A stretch of 64,000 bases of DNA, taken from Kriegella aquimaris. GTDB lineage: Bacteria; Bacteroidota; Bacteroidia; Flavobacteriales; Flavobacteriaceae. The notes below the pieces were generated by a model. The model ran no database searches. It saw only the letters and a program-made list of their open reading frames with translations, and was not told where the DNA came from. The DNA lies in the NCBI RefSeq assembly GCF_900103215.1, contig NZ_FNGV01000004.1, positions 62,001 through 126,000 on the forward strand. Reading direction: 5' to 3'. A program made the position numbers and the translations under genes. Shown piece after piece: positions 29,219-40,487 of this stretch (the first letter of the stretch is position 1; each line of letters begins with the position of its first letter).

Positions 29219-29818
29219 ATGAATACTTTTGACCCCAACTATCAAAGTAAGAATATCGAGGGTAAAATCGTTGTTGCCCTAGAGCGTATTTCAAAGGCGT
29301 TTAGGGTATTGTTATGGCAAGAAGGAAAAGCAAATGCCCTCACTCCTTTACAGCTACAATTACTACTGTTCTTGAAATTTCATTCTCCCCATAAATGCAA
29401 GGTTAACTATTTGGCAAAAGAGTTCAATGTGACCAAGGCCACCATCAGTGAAACCGTTCGTCTTTTAAGTAAGAAGGCCTATATTTTCAAAGAAACGGAC
29501 CCCATAGATACCCGAAGTTATTCAATCTATTTAACGGATAAAGGCAAACAAATTGTTACTAAAACCAGTTCGTTTGCCGGGGCCATTGAAAAACCTATCC
29601 ATACTTTTACCGAAAGTCAGAAAGAGGTGCTATTCCAAAGTTTACTGGAACTTATCGAAAAATTGAACAAAGCGGGTATTATTACCGTTCAACGCATGTG
29701 TTTCTCGTGTCGGTTCTATCAATCGGACGAAAAACAAGACTACTGCCGACTATTGCAAAAACCACTCCGCACCAATGATATACGCATCGATTGCCCTGAG
29801 CATGAGACAGCGGTTTGA
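29219..29818 (+). CDS. MarR-family regulator with C-terminal four-cysteine cluster
   Basis: Winged-helix regulator of 199 aa. The MarR domain covers about residues 15-150, with recognition region FNVTKATISETVRLLSKKAY and wing DTRSYSIYLTDKGK. Beyond the usual end is an extra segment with cysteines 161, 164, 176 and 192 (CFSC, YCRLL, DCPEH), which could hold zinc or an iron-sulfur cluster or act as thiol sensor. It follows the CPVC thioredoxin-fold gene by 53 bp, so redox sensing is an inference supported by both cysteines and context. Confidence 0.85.
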   Translation: MNTFDPNYQSKNIEGKIVVALERISKAFRVLLWQEGKANALTPLQLQLLLFLKFHSPHKCKVNYLAKEFNVTKATISETVRLLSKKAYIFKETDPIDTRSYSIYLTDKGKQIVTKTSSFAGAIEKPIHTFTESQKEVLFQSLLELIEKLNKAGIITVQRMCFSCRFYQSDEKQDYCRLLQKPLRTNDIRIDCPEHETAV

Positions 29819-29912
29819 GCCGCTGCATGAACCTCCTGCTATTTATCAGCAAGTCGTTCTGATCATTATTAGTTCAACATAAAATACTGTATCAGAACCA
29901 TTTGTGCCAGTT

Positions 29913-29958
29913 TTTGAATCAATTGTGCGATTTTCCTTCTGCGAAATCCGTATATTTA
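29913..29958 (+). promoter_or_regulatory. Candidate promoter of the tandem regulator operon with a degenerate operator box
   Basis: TATATTTA at 29951-29958 resembles a -7 element. The 18-mer at 29913-29930 (TTTGAATCAATTGTGCGA) matches 11 of 18 bases of the box at 34499-34516 and sits 20 bp from the -7 element, against 21 bp in the three stronger promoters. It would allow autoregulation, but the match is weak. Confidence 0.35.
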
Positions 29959-30009
29959 TACTATTCCCCTTTCCGTTGAATCAAAAATCTTATTTTAAAA
30001 TTTTAAGCC

Positions 30010-31116
30010 ATGCCAATTTATATGGATTCACATATCGTTCCGGGTGTTGAGGCCAAACATGTCGCGGGGGCACATAAGAAAGATTTGGGCATACAAGATC
30101 AGTTCGGTTGCCGCAACATGACCTATTGGGTCGATGAGGATAGAGGAAGGGTCTTTTGTTTGATCGATGCCCCGAACGAAGAGGCGGTTCGCCAAATGCA
30201 TGATCACGCTCACGGGATGGTACCTCATGAAATCATACCGGTAAACGGCAAGGTGGTAGAAGCCTTTTTAGGAAGAATAGCAGATCCCGAAACCTATTTT
30301 GATCCTAGTGAGCCGGGTCTTAAAATATTCAACGATCCTGCCTTCAGGGTCATTTTATCGATTAAGACCAAAGATGTAAGATTGCTGCTTCATAATCTGG
30401 GAAAAAAAAGAACCAAACAGTTATTCTCACTCTATTACGAAACGGTAAGGGAACAAGTACAAAAACACGAAGGCAGTGAAGTGGAAATGAAAGGAGAAGT
30501 CTTTGTTCTTTCATTTACATCGGTATCACTTGCTGTTGATTGTGCCATAGCCATTCAGAAAGCCCTACACGTGGCCACTGAGCTCATTGACCTGCGAATG
30601 GGTCTCCATGCTGGCCTTCCAGTAGATCAAAGCAATACCATATTCGGAAAAACAGTGCAATTCGCGCAATACCTCTGCACCCTTGATCATAAAAATCAAA
30701 TCATAATGTCTTCCATAGTGAGTGAACTTTATAAACCAGATTTACGAAAGAACGAGAACATACAAGACAATATAAAAAGGCTTAGCGCATCGGAAGAAAA
30801 ATCATTGGAACACATTATTCATATCCTTGATGAAAATTGGCAGAAGCCTGAATTTGGAATCCAAGACTTTTGCCAAAAGCTTTCCATAAGTAAATCACAG
30901 CTCTACCGAAAATGTACGGGGGTAACCGACAAATCGCCCAATGCCCTTTTACGCGAATATCGATTGTTAAAATCTTTGGAATTGTTGGGGAAAGAAGGGC
31001 AGAATGTTTCCCAGACCACTTTTGATGCAGGATTTAGCAGCCCCTCCTATTTTATAAAATGTTTTCAGAAACGCTTTGGCCTGCTTCCGTTGAAATATGC
31101 CAAATTACAAACATAA
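30010..31116 (+). CDS. DUF4242 / cyclase-like / AraC regulator, copy 1
   Basis: Soluble protein of 368 aa with three parts. Residues 1-82 are a DUF4242 (SCO4226-type nickel-binding) domain with H8, H22, C50, H64 and H68. Residues about 110-250 resemble a class III nucleotide cyclase domain (MKGEVFVLSFTSVSLAVDCA, LRMGLHAGLPVD) but lack the two-aspartate metal site, so enzymatic activity is unlikely. Residues about 262-366 are an AraC helix-turn-helix (SISKSQLYRKC, AGFSSPSYFIKCFQKRFG). It is the most divergent of four tandem copies and the first gene of the operon. Presumed one-component sensor-regulator. Confidence 0.85.
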   Translation: MPIYMDSHIVPGVEAKHVAGAHKKDLGIQDQFGCRNMTYWVDEDRGRVFCLIDAPNEEAVRQMHDHAHGMVPHEIIPVNGKVVEAFLGRIADPETYFDPSEPGLKIFNDPAFRVILSIKTKDVRLLLHNLGKKRTKQLFSLYYETVREQVQKHEGSEVEMKGEVFVLSFTSVSLAVDCAIAIQKALHVATELIDLRMGLHAGLPVDQSNTIFGKTVQFAQYLCTLDHKNQIIMSSIVSELYKPDLRKNENIQDNIKRLSASEEKSLEHIIHILDENWQKPEFGIQDFCQKLSISKSQLYRKCTGVTDKSPNALLREYRLLKSLELLGKEGQNVSQTTFDAGFSSPSYFIKCFQKRFGLLPLKYAKLQT

Positions 31117-31150
31117 TAGTTTAAACGAGTTCTATAAAAAAGATAAGATT

Positions 31151-32224
31151 ATGCCGCTATATATGGACATACACAAGGTCGATTCCGACGATTTTACAGT
31201 TGAAGATGTGATAAAGGCACATATGGAAGATATGGCAGTACAAGAAAAATTTGGCGTGATACAAAGGAAATATTGGGTCAACGAACCCGATAAAATGGTG
31301 TTTTGCCTGATGGAAGGCCCCAATAAGGAAGCCTGTCACAAAACACATGAAGAATCGCATGGTATGACGGCCTGTAATATTATCGAGGTCTCCGATGATG
31401 AATACAACCTGTTTATGGCCAGGGGCAGTACCGAAGAAAACGATCTGGCTTATAAATTGGACGGAGAACTTGATTCGGGCTTTCGCACCATCATGCTTGT
31501 GAGCACATCGGATCTATGCGGCAAATACGGACACTATATTAAGGAAATACATAGATTGCTAAAGCAGTATAACGGAGTCATCGTACTTCAGCCGAACGAT
31601 GAAATCATGGCCTCGTTCCTTTTGGCATCCGACGCTATTCTATGCGCCTTGGCCATCGCCAAACTTTTGAAGTCGATACCCGATAATTTTGAATATCGGC
31701 TGGCCTTGGTCAGTGGAAATCCCGTGGACCAGAACGGCACGGACCTGTTCGAAGACACCAAACAAAAAGTAAAGATATTGTGCCAGATCGGTCTGAGTAA
31801 GGTCATCTATCTCGATGCCACCACTAAAGCCCTTTCAAGCAAAGAATCCAACACTCCCAAAGTAAATCACAGTGACCTTAAAATAGTAGGGAACCATGAT
31901 TTTTCTTTTTGCGAAAAGTTATCCGACATTCTGAACGGAGGTTTGAGCGATCCTAATTTTAAAAGCGAGGATCTAGGCAGACAATTAGGTTTGAGCAAGG
32001 CACAGACCTATAGAAAGATTACGGCCTTAACCGGTATGTCGCCCAACACTTTGATTCGGGAACTTCGATTGCGAAAATCGCTCAAGGCCCTAAAAACCAA
32101 TCATAAAACCGTGGCCGAAATAGCTTATGACTTAGGATTTAACAGCCCAACGTATTTTACGAGGGTATTTCGGAATAGGTATGAGGTATTACCAACTTCA
32201 TTCGCTAAACTAAACGCTTCGTAA
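31151..32224 (+). CDS. DUF4242 / cyclase-like / AraC regulator, copy 2
   Basis: Paralogue of 357 aa, starting at ATG 31151 (MPLYMDIHKV), which aligns with the starts of the other copies; an upstream in-frame ATG overlaps copy 1 and is rejected. DUF4242 residues 1-80 carry H8, H24, C52, H63, H66 and H70. The cyclase-like middle has LQPNDEIMASFLLASDA and RLALVSGNPVDQ. The AraC domain (LGLSKAQTYRKITALTGMSP, GFNSPTYFTRVF) is nearly the same as in copies 3 and 4, so all three probably recognise the same DNA site. It starts 34 bp after copy 1. Confidence 0.85.
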   Translation: MPLYMDIHKVDSDDFTVEDVIKAHMEDMAVQEKFGVIQRKYWVNEPDKMVFCLMEGPNKEACHKTHEESHGMTACNIIEVSDDEYNLFMARGSTEENDLAYKLDGELDSGFRTIMLVSTSDLCGKYGHYIKEIHRLLKQYNGVIVLQPNDEIMASFLLASDAILCALAIAKLLKSIPDNFEYRLALVSGNPVDQNGTDLFEDTKQKVKILCQIGLSKVIYLDATTKALSSKESNTPKVNHSDLKIVGNHDFSFCEKLSDILNGGLSDPNFKSEDLGRQLGLSKAQTYRKITALTGMSPNTLIRELRLRKSLKALKTNHKTVAEIAYDLGFNSPTYFTRVFRNRYEVLPTSFAKLNAS

Positions 32225-32238
32225 GAAAAATATAGCTT

Positions 32239-33321
32239 ATGCCACTTTTTATGGACATACATGTTGTCGAAGACAATGCCTTTAATGAAATAGCTGCGCA
32301 GGTAGGGCATCATAAAGATATTGCGGTGCAGCACAGATTTGGAGTGAAACATATAAAATATTTCTTGAATCTCCCTGAGAGAAAGGTTTTTTGCCTTATG
32401 GAGGCTCCCGATAAAGAAGCCTGTATAGACAACCATTTGGCGGCACACGGAATAGGCGCCTGCAACGTAATAGAAGTTTCCAACGAAATCGATTTTAAGG
32501 CATTTTTAGGTGAAGGGAGTAAAGACGAAAAAGATATGGCCCTCACTAAAAATGGGGGAATCGATACGGGTTACCGTACCTTGATGATGATTTCCCTAGT
32601 TGATTTCACGGAAGATTATGGACGTCATATACCTATTGAAGAAGTTTATCAGTTGGTAGAAAAACACCACGGAAACATTATTAACCTACCCAGCGATAAA
32701 ATCATGGCGTCTTTTGTGAATGCGTCCGATGCTATTTCCTGTTGTATGGCATCGTTCAGTTTGTTGGAATTCAATCCGAGAAACATTGATTATACTATAG
32801 CACTGGTTACCGGTAAACCTGTAGATGAGGTTGGTTCGGACTTCTTCGGTGAAGCCAAAGAACGTCTACAGACCCTTTGCCAAATTGGTCTTAGCAATTC
32901 GATTTATATCGATGCCGCCACAAGAGCCCTTGCCAAAGGAGAACCCGAAACCAGTGGTAACGGTAAAACCAAAATTTTGTTTGTATCGGAAAACGATTTT
33001 TCGCTATATACGGCCTTGTGGAAAATTCTCGACGAGCAGATTACGGATCCCGATTTTAAGAGCGAATACCTCAATAATGGGTTAGGCCTTAGCAAAGCAC
33101 AGGCCTATCGAAAGATAAAGGCCTTGACGGGCATGTCGCCGAATACGCTGATCCGTGAAATACGATTACGCCGATCTCTAAGTGCCTTGAAAAAGAATAG
33201 TAAAACCGTTGCCGAGATAGCATACGAACTAGGCTTTAACAGCCCAACCTATTTTACACGGGTTTTTCGGAATCGGTACGAGGTACTCCCAACCTCATTT
33301 GCCAAACTTCATAGCGCATGA
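32239..33321 (+). CDS. DUF4242 / cyclase-like / AraC regulator, copy 3
   Basis: Paralogue of 360 aa, 14 bp after copy 2. The DUF4242 domain keeps H8, H24, C52, H66 and H70 (MPLFMDIHVV, HHKDIAVQ, FCLMEAPDKEAC). The cyclase-like domain has LPSDKIMASFVNASDAISC and IALVTGKPVDEVG, again without catalytic aspartates. The C-terminal AraC domain contains LGLSKAQAYRKIKALTGMSP and GFNSPTYFTRVFRNRYEVLP. The sensor halves differ much more between copies than the DNA-binding halves, as expected if copies respond to different signals through one operator. Confidence 0.85.
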   Translation: MPLFMDIHVVEDNAFNEIAAQVGHHKDIAVQHRFGVKHIKYFLNLPERKVFCLMEAPDKEACIDNHLAAHGIGACNVIEVSNEIDFKAFLGEGSKDEKDMALTKNGGIDTGYRTLMMISLVDFTEDYGRHIPIEEVYQLVEKHHGNIINLPSDKIMASFVNASDAISCCMASFSLLEFNPRNIDYTIALVTGKPVDEVGSDFFGEAKERLQTLCQIGLSNSIYIDAATRALAKGEPETSGNGKTKILFVSENDFSLYTALWKILDEQITDPDFKSEYLNNGLGLSKAQAYRKIKALTGMSPNTLIREIRLRRSLSALKKNSKTVAEIAYELGFNSPTYFTRVFRNRYEVLPTSFAKLHSA

Positions 33322-33342
33322 TGTTTAAGTAAAAATAGAACT

Positions 33343-34425
33343 ATGCCGTTATACGTAGACCTTCATCATATCCATTCCGATTACTTCTCGGAAGAAGATG
33401 CATTTAAGGCCCACATGAAAGATCTTAATGTGCAAGATCAGTTTGGCGTGACCCACAAAAAATACTGGATTAATTTTGATCAAAAGACCATGTTCTGCCT
33501 AGTGGATGGGCCAAACAAAGAGGCATGCAACGCAGCCCATCAAATGGCACACTTAGATCAGGCTTGCAACATTATAATAGAGGTATCGGACAATGAATTT
33601 ATTTCATTTTTGGGTATAGGTAAAAAGAACGAAAATGATATGGCCCTTACCCTTTCGAACGAAATTGATAGCGGGTATCGTACCATAATGCTGGTACGCA
33701 TATGTAATCTTTCCACGGAGCAGAATTATACGGGTATGGTATATGGGCTTGTTGAACAGTACGATGGCAAGGTCGTGCCACAACCCAATGACCGGATTAT
33801 GGTTTCCTTTATTCATGCGTCCAATGCGATAGCGTGTGTTACGGAAATACGCAAAAGATTAAAACCAATCTCCGATAATCTAGATTTAACTATGGCCTTG
33901 GTCACTGGAAAACCGGTTGATGATCATAGTGCGGTTCTTTTTGAAGAAGCCAAGAAAAAAGTGGAAACCTTGTGCCAACTAGGCCATGACGGAGCAATAT
34001 ATATTGACAGCGAATCAAAAGCCTTGTCGCGACAGGAACCCAATCTACCAGAAACGAAGGATAATTATATTAAAATAGTGAACTCTAGAGATTATGCCTT
34101 GTTCGAATCATTATTGCAAATTTTTGACGATCGTTTAAAGCATCCTGATTTCAAAAGTGAACATCTTGGCCAGGAATTAGGCCTAAGTAAGGCACAAACC
34201 TATCGAAAGATAAAGGCATTGACCGAAATGTCTCCCAATGAACTAATTCGAGAAGTGCGGTTGCGACGCTCTTTAAACGCCCTAAAAAACAATAACAAAA
34301 CAGTAGCGGAAATAGCATACGATCTAGGCTTTAATAGTCCAACTTATTTTACCCGGGTTTTCCGAAAAAGATTCGGAGTGCTACCAACTTCCTTTGCCAA
34401 GCTCTCAAATTTCCACAGTTTATAG
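33343..34425 (+). CDS. DUF4242 / cyclase-like / AraC regulator, copy 4
   Basis: Paralogue of 360 aa, 21 bp after copy 3 and last of the tandem array. DUF4242 residues H8, H24, C52, H66 and H70 are conserved. The middle domain has PQPNDRIMVSFIHASNAIAC and MALVTGKPVDDHS. The AraC domain has LGLSKAQTYRKIKALTEMSP and GFNSPTYFTRVFRKRFGVLP. The next promoter, with two copies of the shared operator box, begins about 30 bp after its stop. Role as an activator of that promoter is inferred from position and from box placement. Confidence 0.85.
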   Translation: MPLYVDLHHIHSDYFSEEDAFKAHMKDLNVQDQFGVTHKKYWINFDQKTMFCLVDGPNKEACNAAHQMAHLDQACNIIIEVSDNEFISFLGIGKKNENDMALTLSNEIDSGYRTIMLVRICNLSTEQNYTGMVYGLVEQYDGKVVPQPNDRIMVSFIHASNAIACVTEIRKRLKPISDNLDLTMALVTGKPVDDHSAVLFEEAKKKVETLCQLGHDGAIYIDSESKALSRQEPNLPETKDNYIKIVNSRDYALFESLLQIFDDRLKHPDFKSEHLGQELGLSKAQTYRKIKALTEMSPNELIREVRLRRSLNALKNNNKTVAEIAYDLGFNSPTYFTRVFRKRFGVLPTSFAKLSNFHSL

Positions 34426-34457
34426 CGATTTGCCAAGATGATTCATTTGTTTCATCA

Positions 34458-34545
34458 TTTGAGCCAAAAAGTACAGCCATGGTTAAAATGTTCGAACCTT
34501 TGAAACAAAACTTACATTTTTCCTACATTTTCCATCGTAACTTTA
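34458..34545 (+). promoter_or_regulatory. Promoter A: two operator boxes plus -7 element
   Basis: Boxes TTTGAGCCAAAAAGTACA (34458-34475) and TTTGAAACAAAACTTACA (34499-34516) start 41 bp apart. TAACTTTA (34538-34545) follows the second box by 21 bp and resembles TAnnTTTG. The proximal box covers the -33 region, as in activator-dependent promoters. It would drive the secreted protein gene at 34918 through a 370-bp leader containing a cytochrome gene remnant. Confidence 0.65.
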
Positions 34546-34917: not shown

Positions 34918-35448
34918 ATGAAAAAGCTAATAATCGGCATATTTTTTCTGAGCCTTGCCAGTCTAGTTTACCCACAAGATCCATGCAGGGAATCGAGAGA
35001 AGTTGTACTCGAGGGCGTTACGATATCGCCAATAAACATCGACTACCTAAACAAAGTAATAGACAATACAACAGCCAAGCGCGTGTTCGACCTACAAGCC
35101 CAAGCGGCCTCGTTCAATCTTTTGAATTCACGCTATTTCAAGGGAAAGGGCGGATTATATTGGGTTACGTTCAAACAACATGGTGGGCTGATTTTCACCA
35201 CTTTTGATGACAAAGGAAAAATACTCCGCTCAAACGAATCGTTCAAGGACATTCTTTTTCCGAAGGCCATTTTAAAGTCAATCTACCGAGCGCACCCGGG
35301 CTGGACCATGAGTAGCAATGAATATTTGGTTTCCTATTCCCATGGCAAAGATGTAAAAAAGTCCTATAAAGTGCTGCTTTCGAAAGGTAATCTTAAAAAG
35401 AGAATACTGATAAATCCCGTAGGCGACCTCTTGGCACTTATCGATTGA
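34918..35448 (+). CDS. Secreted protein of unknown function
   Basis: Protein of 176 aa with a clear signal peptide (MKKLIIGIFFLSLASLVYPQ, cleavage near QDPC). The mature part has one cysteine pair-less C (CRES), no recognised motif, and a mixed alpha/beta pattern with FKGKGGLYWVTFKQHGGLIF and a repeat-like FTTFDDKGKILRSNESF, which recalls PepSY/BLIP-type small periplasmic folds but not strongly. It is located between the two promoter copies, where the body of a duplicated cytochrome gene would be expected. Function unknown. Confidence 0.78.
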   Translation: MKKLIIGIFFLSLASLVYPQDPCRESREVVLEGVTISPINIDYLNKVIDNTTAKRVFDLQAQAASFNLLNSRYFKGKGGLYWVTFKQHGGLIFTTFDDKGKILRSNESFKDILFPKAILKSIYRAHPGWTMSSNEYLVSYSHGKDVKKSYKVLLSKGNLKKRILINPVGDLLALID

Positions 35449-35462
35449 GCAATTCTAATCTG

Positions 35463-35499
35463 CCCTATCCATCCCATTGGATAGGGTGGGTTAAACCCA
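35463..35499 (+). terminator. Weak terminator-like double hairpin
   Basis: CCCTATCC (35463-35470) pairs with GGATAGGG (35479-35486), immediately followed by the palindrome TGGGTTAAACCCA (35487-35499). It lies 15 bp after the secreted protein gene. No T-run follows, so termination efficiency is doubtful. Confidence 0.45.
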
Positions 35500-35502
35500 T
35501 GA

Positions 35503-35822
35503 ACCATTTGTTTCATCATTTGGACCAAAAAGTACAACCGTGGTTCAAAAGTGCGAACCTTTGAAACAAAACTTACATTTTTCCCGCATCTCACATCCTA
35601 ACTTTACTGTATTAAAATCAGACAACCTCACGGGGCCGTCTGTTTGATTTCCCCCACGATAATTTCGAATATGAAAGCGGACATGCTATGTCCGCAAGGG
35701 TGTTAGTGTGTAAAATTTTGAAAGTACAGTCCAACAAAAAAGGAAAAGAGCCAAAATGGAAACTGCAAAACGACATCGATGTATCCTAAATGCCAAGAGG
35801 CTTATTGGAAAGCTTTCAGTTG
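35503..35822 (+). repeat. Duplicated promoter-leader block, downstream copy
   Basis: Second copy of the block at 34443-34760. It keeps an intact ATG and leads into the full cytochrome gene. Its leader hairpin (GCGGACAT 35677-35684, ATGTCCGC 35688-35695) is a perfect 8-bp stem with a 3-nt loop. Confidence 0.85.
35519..35606 (+). promoter_or_regulatory. Promoter B of the cytochrome-DsrE-TauE group: two operator boxes plus -7 element
   Basis: Boxes TTTGGACCAAAAAGTACA (35519-35536) and TTTGAAACAAAACTTACA (35560-35577), again 41 bp apart, then TAACTTTA (35599-35606) after 21 bp. The expected transcription start near 35613 gives a leader of about 143 nt with the 8-bp hairpin described above. Confidence 0.7.
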
Positions 35823-36802
35823 CCTTTTTGCTATTGCTAATGCTTGCCTTCATATTATTATGGATAGGTTTTCAAGGCCTTTCCCAACCAAATGGATACG
35901 ATGACCCCGCTATGGATATCTATACCATGAGTTATGATGTTTCACAGTTGGACGATTCCGAAGAGAGCAAAATAATAAAACTAGGTTACGAAGTGTTCCG
36001 TAATACATCAAAGTATATCGGTCCGGCCAACACGGATAAAAATATGGCGTATGCCGGAAACAATTTATCATGTACCAATTGCCATTTATGGTCCGGCACA
36101 AAACCTTATGCAGCCCCATTGATCGGTATCAAACAACGGTTTCCTCAGTTCAGGGGTAGGGAGAATAAAGTCGGCACCATTGAGGAACGTATCAATGGGT
36201 GTATGGAACGCAGTATGAATGGCCGCATGTTTCCACCAAATGCTCAGGAAATGAAGGTTTTGGTCGCCTATCTAAATTGGTTGAGTCGATTTGCTCCCGA
36301 AGACGGGAAAATCAAAGGGCAGGGCCTAATGAAAATTGAGATTCCAGACAGGGCCGTCGATTTGGAAAAGGGCAAACTACATTTTGAAACACATTGTGTC
36401 TTGTGTCATGGAAAAAACGGCCAAGGGAAGATATCAATAACGGGCAGTTTTTATGAATATCCACCTCTTTGGGGTAATGACTCGTATAACAATGGCGCAG
36501 GAATGACTCGAGTAATTACGGCTGCGCAATTCATAAAGGGCAATATGCCTTATGGAACGACCTATGACAGTCCCGTTTTGACCGATGAAGAGGCCTATGA
36601 TGTGGCAGGTTTCATAAACCAAAAACCACGGCCAGAAAAAACAAATCTAGCCAAAGATTTCCCTGACTTAATAAAAAAACCCGTCTCATCGCCGTATCCA
36701 CCATATGCCGATACTTTTTCAGTAACACAACATCAATTGGGTCCTTTTAAGCCCATTATGGAATACTATAAAACAGCGTATAATATTGATAAATCAAAAT
36801 AG
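35756..36802 (+). CDS. TsdA-like dihaem cytochrome c (thiosulfate dehydrogenase/tetrathionate reductase family)
   Basis: Membrane-anchored dihaem cytochrome of 348 aa: one N-terminal helix (about residues 20-38), haem 1 site CTNCH at 106-110, haem 2 site CVLCH at 214-218. C149 in INGCMERSMNG lies 39 residues after the first haem histidine. In TsdA enzymes a cysteine in this place (Cys96 in Allochromatium vinosum) is the second axial ligand of haem 1, and a Met in an NMP-G motif serves haem 2, here NMPYG. These mark it as TsdA-like, oxidising thiosulfate to tetrathionate or the reverse. Neighbouring DsrE and TauE/SafE genes support sulfur chemistry. Direction of reaction is unknown. Confidence 0.84.
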   Translation: METAKRHRCILNAKRLIGKLSVAFLLLLMLAFILLWIGFQGLSQPNGYDDPAMDIYTMSYDVSQLDDSEESKIIKLGYEVFRNTSKYIGPANTDKNMAYAGNNLSCTNCHLWSGTKPYAAPLIGIKQRFPQFRGRENKVGTIEERINGCMERSMNGRMFPPNAQEMKVLVAYLNWLSRFAPEDGKIKGQGLMKIEIPDRAVDLEKGKLHFETHCVLCHGKNGQGKISITGSFYEYPPLWGNDSYNNGAGMTRVITAAQFIKGNMPYGTTYDSPVLTDEEAYDVAGFINQKPRPEKTNLAKDFPDLIKKPVSSPYPPYADTFSVTQHQLGPFKPIMEYYKTAYNIDKSK

Positions 36803-36899: not shown

Positions 36900-37580
36900 A
36901 TGAAAACAAAAAGTAAAAATTCGAGGAGATCTTTCATGGGAGCAATTTTAATGGGTGCCACTGCAAGCACGTTATCGCTTTTAACCGACCCCATCTATGC
37001 CAATGTACCATCATTTAATGAGGAAAAAATGGACGAAGCGGAAGATTGGTTTAAAAACATCAAAGGGAAGCATCGCATTGTTTATGATGGCTCTACGCCA
37101 CATAATGGTTTTCCTATTATTTGGAACTGGGCCTTTTATTTAAGTAATAACGAAACCGGTTCCGAAGATAAAGATATAACCGCAATGACTGTTTTGCGTC
37201 ACAATGCTATTCCCTTTGCATTAAAATCAGAAATGTGGAAAAAATATAAGCTGGGTGAGGTTTTTGGGGTGAACGATAACACCACCAAGGCACCATCCCT
37301 ACGAAACCCATACTATGAGCCTAAAGAAGGAGATTTTCCCTTGCCCGTAATTCAAGGCATCAAAGAGATGCAACAGCGCGGGGCCTTGTTCTGCGTCTGC
37401 AATCTGGCCCTATCGGTACAAAGTGGTTCGGTAGCCCAGAAAATGGGCTTAGACCCCAAAGTCGTCTATCAAGAATGGGTCGATGCCATTCATCCGGGAA
37501 TACAATTAGTACCCTCCGGCGTTTGGGCATTGGGCAGAGCTCAGGAAAATGGTTGCGGGTATATTTTTGCGAGCAATTAA
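36900..37580 (+). CDS. Tat-exported DsrE-fold protein
   Basis: Protein of 226 aa with a twin-arginine signal (SRRSFMGA, R9-R10, then a hydrophobic stretch to about residue 30). The mature protein resembles DsrE-like periplasmic proteins: a first strand HRIVYDGS, a helix-rich middle, GALFCVCNLALSVQSG with C165 and C167, and C219 near the end. DsrE-type proteins carry or transfer sulfur on cysteines. Folding before export through Tat suggests a cofactor or complex. It follows the cytochrome gene by 97 bp and precedes a second DsrE-like gene by 45 bp. Confidence 0.78.
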   Translation: MKTKSKNSRRSFMGAILMGATASTLSLLTDPIYANVPSFNEEKMDEAEDWFKNIKGKHRIVYDGSTPHNGFPIIWNWAFYLSNNETGSEDKDITAMTVLRHNAIPFALKSEMWKKYKLGEVFGVNDNTTKAPSLRNPYYEPKEGDFPLPVIQGIKEMQQRGALFCVCNLALSVQSGSVAQKMGLDPKVVYQEWVDAIHPGIQLVPSGVWALGRAQENGCGYIFASN

Positions 37581-37625: not shown

Positions 37626-38042
37626 ATGAAAAAGTATATCATACTACTATGTATAGTAATGGCCGGCACATCATTGTTATTGGCCCAAGAAAAACCGATC
37701 AAAGTCGTATTCGATGTTACCAGTGACGATACTGCCGTACATGGGTCGACCATGCGACATGTACAATATATGTCAGAGGAATATCCCACTTCAAAATTTC
37801 AAGTCGTCATGTACAGCGGTGCTTACGACATGGTCAACAAGAAAAAATCGACAGTGGCTGCTGCCATGGAAGCATTGGCCAAAAGAAAAAACGTAGCGTT
37901 CGTTGTTTGCAAGGCCACCATAGAGCGGCACAACATTGCAGATTCCGACCTTATTCCCGGGGTAACCACGGTTCCCAACGGAATCTATGAAATTTTTACG
38001 AAACAAAAAGAAGGTTGGGGGTATATAAAAGAAGGGAAATAA
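37626..38042 (+). CDS. Secreted DsrE/DsrF-like protein
   Basis: Protein of 138 aa with a Sec signal peptide ending LLAQ (about residue 21). The mature 117 residues form one DsrE/DsrF-like alpha/beta domain: IKVVFDVTSDD, FQVVMYSGAYDMV, then AFVVCKATIERHNI, with C95 at the position where this family places its sulfur-binding cysteine. It is probably a periplasmic sulfur carrier working with the preceding Tat-exported protein and the cytochrome. It ends 21 bp before the TauE/SafE gene. Confidence 0.8.
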   Translation: MKKYIILLCIVMAGTSLLLAQEKPIKVVFDVTSDDTAVHGSTMRHVQYMSEEYPTSKFQVVMYSGAYDMVNKKKSTVAAAMEALAKRKNVAFVVCKATIERHNIADSDLIPGVTTVPNGIYEIFTKQKEGWGYIKEGK

Positions 38043-38063: not shown

Positions 38064-38864
38064 GTGGAAACCATACAAATTTTTGGATATTTCGGTGCCT
38101 TGGCCATAGGTCTCATTTTGGGTCTTATGGGAAGTGGGGGTTCCTTGATGGCCGTTCCTGTTTTGACCTATTTGTTTCATATTAGTCCGGTTACTACCAC
38201 GGCATATTCTCTGTTCGTGGTGGGAACTTCGGCATCGGTCGGTGCCTTTCGAAATTATAATAAGGGTTTGGTAGATTTTAAGGTTGCCCTGATATTTTCC
38301 ATTCCCGCCTTTATTACGGTTTATACCACACGAAAGCTTGTAATGCCCGCCATACCAAAGGAATTATTACTGATGGAAGGGTTCGTCGTGACAAAGGATG
38401 TAGGGATTATGGTCTTTTTTGCATTGTTAATGGCGGCCGCCTCGATTAGCATGATACTCGAAAAAGGGTTGTCGACTGATGATAGTGGTCCCATACGATA
38501 CAACTATCCCCTCATCCTATTCGAGGGCGTGATTATTGGAATGCTAACGGGTATCGTCGGCATTGGCGGCGGGTTTCTAATTATTCCTGCCTTGGTACTG
38601 TGTGTAAAACTGCCCATGAAGAAAGCGGTAGCCACCTCCCTATTCATTATCGCCCTGAAATCACTAATCGGATTTACGGGCGATTTAGACAACTTGGAAG
38701 TCAATTGGACTTTCCTGATTAGCTTTACATTGATTTCCATTCTAGGAATTTTTATGGGGATGTACCTATCGTCTTTTGTAAAGGGCGATAAGCTTAAAAA
38801 GACCTTTGGTTGGTTCGTTCTTTTCGTAGCAATTGGAATTTTTTATAAGGAACTTTTTACCTAG
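38064..38864 (+). CDS. TauE/SafE-family membrane exporter
   Basis: Integral membrane protein of 266 aa with about eight helices in two related halves, each starting with a glycine-rich helix (GLILGLMGSGGSLMAVPVL and GMLTGIVGIGGGFLIIPALV). This is the pattern of TauE/SafE anion exporters, many of which move sulfite, sulfoacetate or other sulfur-containing organic anions. Start codon is GTG at 38064, 21 bp after the DsrE-like gene. It is likely the last gene of the sulfur group, exporting a product or supplying a substrate. Confidence 0.86.
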   Translation: METIQIFGYFGALAIGLILGLMGSGGSLMAVPVLTYLFHISPVTTTAYSLFVVGTSASVGAFRNYNKGLVDFKVALIFSIPAFITVYTTRKLVMPAIPKELLLMEGFVVTKDVGIMVFFALLMAAASISMILEKGLSTDDSGPIRYNYPLILFEGVIIGMLTGIVGIGGGFLIIPALVLCVKLPMKKAVATSLFIIALKSLIGFTGDLDNLEVNWTFLISFTLISILGIFMGMYLSSFVKGDKLKKTFGWFVLFVAIGIFYKELFT

Positions 38865-39083
38865 TACGGATTTTGTACCCAAACGATATGATTTAAAATG
38901 AAGTGATTCCACCCTATTTCACCAGTATCGGAAGGGCTTTTAAAATTTGACAGGTACTCGGTATAAATTTCACACCCTTAGCATAGCCGAAGGTTAAAGG
39001 AGTATCTAGAGAGGCTTTCACATTCGTGTTTAGCCTATCGATATAATAACGGATAATCAAAAAATGAAACAAATGTTTCATTT
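38865..39083. other. Intergenic stretch, no feature seen
   Basis: First part of the 426-bp gap between the TauE/SafE gene and the acyl-CoA dehydrogenase-like gene. No gene or terminator is apparent apart from the perfect dyad ATGAAAC-AAAT-GTTTCAT at 39064-39081, which abuts the operator box of the next promoter. Confidence 0.5.
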
Positions 39084-39130
39084 TTTGATGCAAAACTTAC
39101 ACTTTTAGCACCATTTGTATTGTAAATTTA
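39064..39130 (+). promoter_or_regulatory. Promoter C: dyad, operator box and -7 element
   Basis: Box TTTGATGCAAAACTTACA (39084-39101) lies 21 bp before TAAATTTA (39123-39130), the same spacing as in promoters A and B. GTTTCAT just upstream of the box is also shared with the distal boxes at 34.45 and 35.51 kb. It should drive the acyl-CoA dehydrogenase-like gene at 39291, with a leader of about 155 nt. Confidence 0.65.
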
Positions 39131-39290: not shown

Positions 39291-40487
39291 ATGATAGAGA
39301 CACAAACAGACCAGAAAAGCGAACTACTAAAAAATTTGGAAGGAATCTTCGTAAAATGTGGTGAACGGGCAGCACATTACGATGCCAACAATCTTTTTTT
39401 TCAAGAAGATTTTGATGAACTTAAAGAAGCTGGGTATTTGCTTATGGCCGTCCCTGAAGAATTTGGCGGTTATGGCATGTTGCTAGACGAAGTAGAACAA
39501 CTTACCAGAAAATTAGCCTACCATGCGGCACCGACGGCGCTGGCCCTTAATATGCATGTCTATTGGACGGGGCTGGTCGCTGATTTATGGCGAGGTGGCG
39601 ATACTTCCATCCAATGGCTTCTCGAAGAAGCGGGAAAAGGCAAAGTTTTTGCTGCCGGCCATGGGGAATCGGGTAATGATTCTCCCGCAACCTATTCTAC
39701 CTGTAAAGCAGAAAAGGTAGATGGCGGCTATAAATTTACGGGGCATAAAATGTTTGGTAGTTTGACCCCCGTTTGGGATTATTTAGGTTTTCACGGTCAA
39801 GACAATAGCGACCCCGACAATCCTATGGTCATACATGCCTTTATGCCGCGGGATACCGAAAATTACGAAATAAAAAATTCGTGGGACGACGCGCTTGGTA
39901 TGCGTGCCACCCGCTCTGACGATACCATCTTAAATGGCGTCTTTGTACCCGATGAACTAATTGTCAGAAGGCTTCCCACTGGTTTTAAGGGTATGGACGG
40001 CTTTGTACTCGGGGTTTTTTGTTGGGCTTTAATGGGGTTTGCAAATGTCTATTATGGTTTAGCACAATGTGTTTTGGACAAGGTTTTGGAAAAATTGCCA
40101 AAAAAGAAATCAATTTCTTTTGACCGGCCATCCATGGCATACAATGGGGTCATACAGCACGATGTAGGTGAAATGGTCATGGAAATCGAAGGAATCGGAC
40201 CCCATTTGGATACCATTGCCCGTGAATGGAGCGAGGGTAAAGATTATGGTCCTGCTTGGGGCATAAAAATTGTTGCGGCTAAATGCCGTTCGGTCGAAGG
40301 CTCGTGGCGGGTTGTGGACAAGGCTATGGATATCATGGGTGGTTACGGGTTGCTACGCAAGGCAGGTTTTGAACGTTTGTTCCGTGATGCGCGATTGGGC
40401 AAGATACATCCGGCGAACGGTTATATATCACGCGAATTTTTGGCAAAAGCCATGTTAGGGATCGATCCTGACCTTCAGCCGAGATAA
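39291..40487 (+). CDS. Acyl-CoA dehydrogenase-family flavoprotein
   Basis: Cytosolic protein of 398 aa with the three-part acyl-CoA dehydrogenase fold: N-terminal helices (FQEDFDELKEAGYL), beta domain (AGHGESGND, GYKFTGHKMFGSL, WDDALGMRATRSDD) and C-terminal helical domain (GGYGLLRKAGFERLFRDARLGKIHP). The flavin-binding regions are good; the catalytic glutamate cannot be placed with certainty, and many family members are not true acyl-CoA dehydrogenases, for example DszC/SfnC-type monooxygenases acting on sulfur compounds. Control by the same operator box as the sulfur genes makes such a role worth testing. Confidence 0.84.
   Translation: MIETQTDQKSELLKNLEGIFVKCGERAAHYDANNLFFQEDFDELKEAGYLLMAVPEEFGGYGMLLDEVEQLTRKLAYHAAPTALALNMHVYWTGLVADLWRGGDTSIQWLLEEAGKGKVFAAGHGESGNDSPATYSTCKAEKVDGGYKFTGHKMFGSLTPVWDYLGFHGQDNSDPDNPMVIHAFMPRDTENYEIKNSWDDALGMRATRSDDTILNGVFVPDELIVRRLPTGFKGMDGFVLGVFCWALMGFANVYYGLAQCVLDKVLEKLPKKKSISFDRPSMAYNGVIQHDVGEMVMEIEGIGPHLDTIAREWSEGKDYGPAWGIKIVAAKCRSVEGSWRVVDKAMDIMGGYGLLRKAGFERLFRDARLGKIHPANGYISREFLAKAMLGIDPDLQPR

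Follow-up and report, generated by a model that had tools for sequence, protein, structure and literature searches.

A four-gene array of putative sensor, cyclase-like and AraC fusion regulators in Kriegella aquimaris and its predicted 21-bp repeat operator

Four adjacent genes in a 64,000-nucleotide stretch of the Kriegella aquimaris genome (the window) probably encode one-component transcription regulators belonging to a family widespread in Bacteroidota. Each product carries an N-terminal SCO4226-like sensor, a cyclase-like middle domain and a C-terminal AraC domain. The last three of these regulators most likely converge on one predicted operator, a set of tandem repeats found beside their own genes and upstream of putative sulfur-oxidation genes.

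Results

Four tandem regulators of a common family

All four open reading frames (Table 1) are intact, adjacent and of the same orientation, encoding proteins of 357–368 amino acids. The start of copy 2 is best placed at 31151 (MPLYMD..., in agreement with all relatives) rather than at 31097. PF14026 scores 72, 60, 44 and 50 bits in copies 1, 2, 3 and 4, respectively (Pfam cut-off 28.5), while the HTH_18 profile scores 65–72 bits (cut-off 33.6) over a C-terminal double HTH. The initial annotation had proposed that four consecutive genes share a PF14026, cyclase-like and AraC domain order, and the reading frames together with both profiles, above cut-off in every copy, bear this out. In the PHROGs collection, the match is confined to the AraC part of the fusions.

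Two further copies, both unlinked, are present on contigs C25 and C16 of the same genome, the latter being referred to as copy 6. According to the recognition helix, copy 1 and the C25 copy form type A (YFIKCF or similar), and copies 2–4 with copy 6 form type B (YFTRVF). A transposase-like ORF adjoins the C25 copy (L002:2649-3228). The gene directly upstream of the array (29219-29818) encodes a MarR-like protein whose C-terminal tail is rich in Cys; its homologue occupies the equivalent place in genome G119 (L159:4647-5315). Beside the MarR-like gene of the window, on its upstream side, a small thioredoxin-like protein is encoded (L001:369-647; PF13192 slightly below cut-off).

Table 1. Genes, predicted operators and predicted targets in the window
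Feature	Position	Strand	Description	Evidence
Copy 1 (type A)	30010..31116	+	SCO4226-like sensor 1-90, class III cyclase-like ~108-258, AraC ~259-368	Pfam, PDB, AF2 model
Copy 2 (type B)	31151..32224	+	domain order as copy 1	Pfam
Copy 3 (type B)	32239..33321	+	domain order as copy 1	Pfam, AF2 model; 4oi6 and AraC folds matched
Copy 4 (type B)	33343..34425	+	domain order as copy 1	Pfam
Predicted regulator-operon operator, type-A flavour	29892..29996	+	units 29892, 29913 (21 bp apart) and 29975, around predicted promoter	
Predicted four-unit operator (21/20/21 bp), type-B flavour	34437..34520	+	upstream of gene 34918	
Predicted four-unit operator, type-B flavour	35498..35581	+	upstream of tsdA-like operon	
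Predicted two-unit operator	39063..39105	+	upstream of acyl-CoA dehydrogenase gene	
Predicted target	34918..35448	+	176 aa, signal-peptide-like start, no known family	operator upstream
Predicted target	35756..36802	+	TsdA-like dihaem cytochrome c (thiosulfate dehydrogenase)	PDB 4wqc E=5e-45; PF21342
Predicted target	36900..37580	+	226 aa, Tat-like signal	weak TetH thiosulfate dehydrogenase match NF052225 E=0.0022, below cut-off
Predicted target	37626..38042	+	DsrE-like, signal-peptide-like start	PF02635; PDB
Predicted target	38064..38864	+	TauE/SafE sulfite-exporter-family permease	PF01925 2e-39
Predicted target	39291..40487	+	acyl-CoA dehydrogenase-family flavoprotein	operator upstream

The three-domain order was originally regarded as unusual, a view which its distribution contradicts. 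At least 544 relatives, mostly from Bacteroidota, were confirmed when one genome per species was scanned, and among the 80 matches listed nearly all come from Bacteroidota and allied lineages, e.g. Balneolaceae and Ignavibacteriaceae. Within the family to which the window's genome belongs, 62 of 299 sampled genomes contain a full-length relative. The description of such genes as common scattered singletons fits most genomes, but not the A+B tandems of 2–4 genes that recur in six genera. By position, tandem arrays are present in the window's own genome (4 genes), in G227 (4), in the Kriegella genome G222 (3) and in G119, G147 and G265 (2 each), every one composed of one type-A gene followed by at least one type-B gene. 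In this phylum the architecture is nothing out of the ordinary; an array of this size is unusual. Literature on SCO4226 and DUF4242 does not describe such fusions and further literature searches returned no relevant match, the combination of sensor, dead cyclase and AraC domain being apparently undescribed so far.

A predicted operator of 21-bp direct repeats

Upstream regions of type-A operons (orthologous promoters) contain a direct repeat with a 21-bp period, a third unit preceding the start codon. The consensus of the predicted operator, a direct repeat of approximately 21-bp period, is TTTGAAYCAAAWKTRYNATTTT. Tandem direct repeats of about this period beside a promoter resemble araI1-I2.

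The first PWM was built on seeds chosen by eye in upstream regions, and for scanning the window its own sites were left out, so that only other genomes contributed. Seven sites of at least 16 bits were detected in the window against 0.6 expected, all of them within 29.9–39.1 kb (29913, 29975, 34499, 35498, 35560 and 39061-39063, the last scored on both strands). Of the units preceding the regulator operon, those at 29913 and 29975 reach 23.6 and 21.6 bits, and that at 29892 reaches 10.7; the operator match at the type-A copy on C25 is weak (11.2 bits). When the two-unit pattern was searched genome-wide, its two best matches fell in this window, the top one at the operator of the regulator operon. 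The pattern TTTGAAACAAAACTTACATTTT, allowing up to 3 mismatches, occurs five times in the 6.06 Mb genome (reversed-pattern control: 0), with three matches in the window, one beside the unlinked copy 6 and one unexplained; four of the five adjoin copies 2–4 or copy 6. An extra close match to the type-B unit was seen at C36:360880 (L195), near a FabG-like gene. This one and the motif matches at C17:10689 and C25:12049 have no obvious link and may be due to chance.

The repeats extend well beyond this genome. In 72 loci from many families, surveyed with a PWM from the window's clade, sites of at least 10 bits are present in 24 regulator-to-next-gene regions, where shuffling expects 1.2, and sites of at least 14 bits in 18 (0.23 expected). 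With the same PWM, sites of at least 14 bits were found in 18 of 68 regulator-to-next-gene regions vs 5 of 587 control intergenic regions across Bacteroidota (Fisher 4.8e-15), and three of those five control regions flank genes of the same clusters. In the family motif, which was refined on the same regions that it describes, a second unit placed exactly 21 bp on has a mean score of 0.5 vs −21.4 (sd 3.3) over offsets.

Seven genomes with differing effectors retain a four-unit array, and the units always number four whether one, two or three type-B genes are present, which rules out that the number of units tracks the number of regulators. It precedes tsdA in G222, G227 and G274, an FAD/BBE oxidase gene in G119 and G011, and another gene in G265. 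Single or double sites are located before the oxidase gene in G147 and before a nitrilase gene in G006 and G269; other sites occur close to an acyl-CoA dehydrogenase homologue, in both G274 and G265, and close to a TauE gene in G227. Because the operator stays constant with varying numbers of type-B genes and recurs at copy 6, and because the helices of copies 2–4 are near-identical, we consider convergence of copies 2–4 on one operator most likely.

Half-sites fall into two classes, which correlate with the recognition-helix classes. C at position 17 is found in 21 of 21 type-B sites (a list that includes the window's own effector sites) vs 6 of 26 type-A sites; type-A and type-B sites nonetheless overlap. 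Unit 3 of the four-unit arrays resembles type A even in G274, a genome in which the one regulator gene detected is of type B, and together with the overlap this makes assignment of individual units to proteins unsure. The initial annotation suggested several inputs converging on one DNA site. This is supported for copies 2–4; copy 1 falls into a class of its own, whose half-site is related yet can be told apart.

Predicted target genes

Genes following the predicted type-B operators in the window comprise TsdA-like, DsrE-like and TauE-like ones as well as the weak TetH match, hence sulfur oxidation is the likely local output of the array, judging by gene content. The product of gene 35756 is homologous to TsdA (4wqc) over both haem domains (residues 98-293), and thiosulfate oxidation is its putative activity. 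In a search of the TsdA literature, titles and abstracts gave no link to a regulator.

Genes recurring downstream of the regulators in 80 loci are those for FAD/BBE oxidases (27), stand-alone, mostly secreted SCO4226-like proteins (26), truncated globins (14) and SnoaL-like proteins (6). No single ligand suggests itself from the effectors taken together (globin, FAD oxidase, nitrilase, tsdA, SCO4226-like protein). On C25 (L168:5245-5694 and L168:5822-6922), a truncated globin gene comes after the type-A copy, as in 13 other surveyed loci. In Rhodohalobacter (L104:10001-16314), two tandem fusions precede SnoaL-like, FAD oxidase, EthD and nitrilase genes, possibly a catabolic cluster, and in Niastella vici a secreted protein with two SCO4226-like domains is encoded immediately after the fusion regulator (L065:11195-11827). 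Pirin-family genes lie directly upstream of regulators in three relatives (L158:10971-11684, L160:8326-9039, L163:7227-7940).

Divergence of copies 2–4

Comparison of copies 2–4 revealed that their AraC domains are 69–73% identical pairwise vs 47–54% for the sensors. The AraC domains had been called almost alike with differing sensors; they are indeed more alike than the sensors, but the identity is no higher than these values. The type-B recognition helices, SK(A/S)Q.xRKI / YFTRVF, are near-identical. Synonymous sites are saturated and equally divergent in every domain, so that the copies are old and the likeness of the AraC domains reflects constraint. This equal divergence rules out that the AraC domains were recently duplicated or homogenised by gene conversion, as do domain trees of the tandem genes, in which no supported within-genome clustering appears.

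Could copies 2–4 be redundant paralogues that sense one signal, differ by drift only and provide no convergence of several inputs? Their common operator and helices would agree with this, as would the retention of the same operator where one type-B gene is present. Orthologous sensors from different genera, however, have an identity of 75–89% (copy 1-K1 84%, copy 2-K2 89%, copy 3-K3 75%), far above that between paralogues, indicating that each sensor has been maintained separately. Given also the age of the copies, we regard redundancy as unlikely.

The N-terminal sensor domain

A conserved set of histidines and cysteine, interpreted from the start as a plausible metal site, is supported. H8, H22/24, C50/52, H64/66 and H68/70 are present in all four copies, and in a set of 100 diverse members of the family D6, H8, D25, C50 and H64 are invariant, with H22 conserved in 99 and H68 in 98. 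SCO4226 of Streptomyces coelicolor has the same ferredoxin-like domain, its H8, H23, D26, C51 and H65 aligning with residues invariant here, but it is a stand-alone protein of 82 amino acids devoid of a DNA-binding domain.

It is conceivable that the N-terminal domain binds nickel as SCO4226 does and that the array controls nickel handling. PF14026 above cut-off in all copies, the many invariant histidines and the fold match of the copy 3 model to Ni-bound SCO4226 (4oi6; TM 0.86 over 78 residues) would all be expected of such nickel-homeostasis regulators. The Ni-1 ligands of SCO4226, however, are Asp43, Ser46 and His76 (PMC4186839), and at these positions the family has D/N, mostly R, and I, respectively. 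Since this site is not conserved, nickel cannot be carried over from SCO4226 by homology. Moreover, the copies score only 26–50 against the equivalog cut-off of 125 for Ni_bind_SCO4226 (NF033706, NCBIfam), and no nickel gene was seen among the recurrent neighbours of the regulators. Nickel homeostasis is therefore quite improbable.

A site of another kind is plausible. From the dimer-interface residues of SCO4226 (M5, W41, Y50, L52; PMC4186839) and the strands of the model, H8 and C50 would be turned towards the helices carrying H22, D25, H64 and H68, an arrangement which makes a site distinct from Ni-1 plausible. Speaking against one interior site, the SCO4226 counterpart of H22, His23, binds a Ni at the surface that has few protein ligands (PMC4186839).

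The middle domain

By sequence, the middle domain of copy 1 matches LipJ/Rv1900c and Ma1120 in the PDB (E ~1e-8), and its AF2 model (pLDDT 89.6) gives a VIA Z of 17.5 to 5d0h over residues 111-273. The copy 3 model (pLDDT 79.8) has only multi-domain, high-rmsd cyclase matches. No cyclase family was matched by sequence profiles in the middle domains of copies 2–4, which are alignable to copy 1, and their predicted cyclase kinship rests mainly on that homology. The assignment of all middle domains to a class III cyclase-like fold thus holds by sequence and fold for copy 1 and would extend to the rest mainly through copy 1.

Catalytic aspartates had been reported as missing. The first metal Asp is indeed lost in all four copies (K/S/S/R in copies 1–4), but the second position reads E/D/D/D, copies 2–4 missing one Asp only. 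In addition, the transition-state Arg is replaced by Y/I/T/T and the GDG motif is broken. Compared with the class III adenylyl cyclases Ma1120 and Rv1900c (LipJ), the modelled domain would share the fold (Z ~17), but its catalytic residues are gone and it is employed inside a transcription factor.

Given these losses, it is improbable that the middle domain retains nucleotide cyclase activity or works as a nucleotide-binding switch, signalling via cyclic nucleotide or NTP binding, despite the close fold match to both cyclases and the deep AraC fusions L101, L104 and L106, in which Asp is still aligned at both metal positions. The domain may, all the same, bind NTP without catalysing a reaction. 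Proteins of Rhizobiales (L108-L110) share the first two domains, a PF14026 sensor and a cyclase, and are ~40% identical to copy 1; they differ in retaining both metal Asps and in having no AraC domain, probably an older state. This points to a degenerate domain that probably descends from an active sensor-cyclase enzyme.

Discussion

Overall, we consider it probable that the array combines a ligand sensor, a dead-cyclase relay and an AraC domain acting on 21-bp repeats at separate type-A and type-B targets, with binding and activation inferred from the placement of sites. The SCO4226-like ferredoxin-fold domain would sense a ligand, possibly a metal-dependent or thiol-reactive signal at H8/H22/D25/C50/H64/H68. 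The cyclase domain, lacking catalytic residues, would serve as a dimerisation and signal-transmission module. The AraC domain would bind the computed tandem repeats beside the regulator's own gene and, once bound, activate the downstream effector gene. For copy 1, the probable target is the regulator operon itself, reached through the type-A units, and copies 2–4 together with the unlinked copy 6 would converge on type-B operators of gene 34918, the thiosulfate-dehydrogenase/DsrE/TauE operon and the acyl-CoA dehydrogenase gene. Like AraC, RhaS and MarA of the AraC/XylS family, these regulators have a C-terminal double HTH; they differ from that family in their sensor, SCO4226-like with a dead cyclase instead of cupin or PAS, and in their predicted sites, which have up to four tandem units.

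More tentatively, and with rather more doubt than conviction, one may picture an integrating switch, in which sensors of different ligands, possibly as heterodimers through the cyclase domains, compete for or co-occupy one four-unit operator and sum their signals at the sulfur-oxidation regulon, while copy 6 couples a further gene. That the repeats are instead operators of another AraC protein, the fusions acting elsewhere, is highly improbable: further transcription-factor genes do lie close by, such as the MarR-like one, but the repeats accompany the fusion genes in different families and orders, the unlinked copy 6 included, and half-site class follows recognition-helix class.

For a large and apparently undescribed family of Bacteroidota regulators, there are thus a predicted operator, two half-site classes that go with helix classes and predicted targets, all of which make the family directly testable. 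It also traces a likely route along which an enzyme, the sensor-cyclase, lost catalysis, acquired an AraC domain and became a transcription factor, and offers a case of paralogous sensors multiplying while their predicted operator stays constant.
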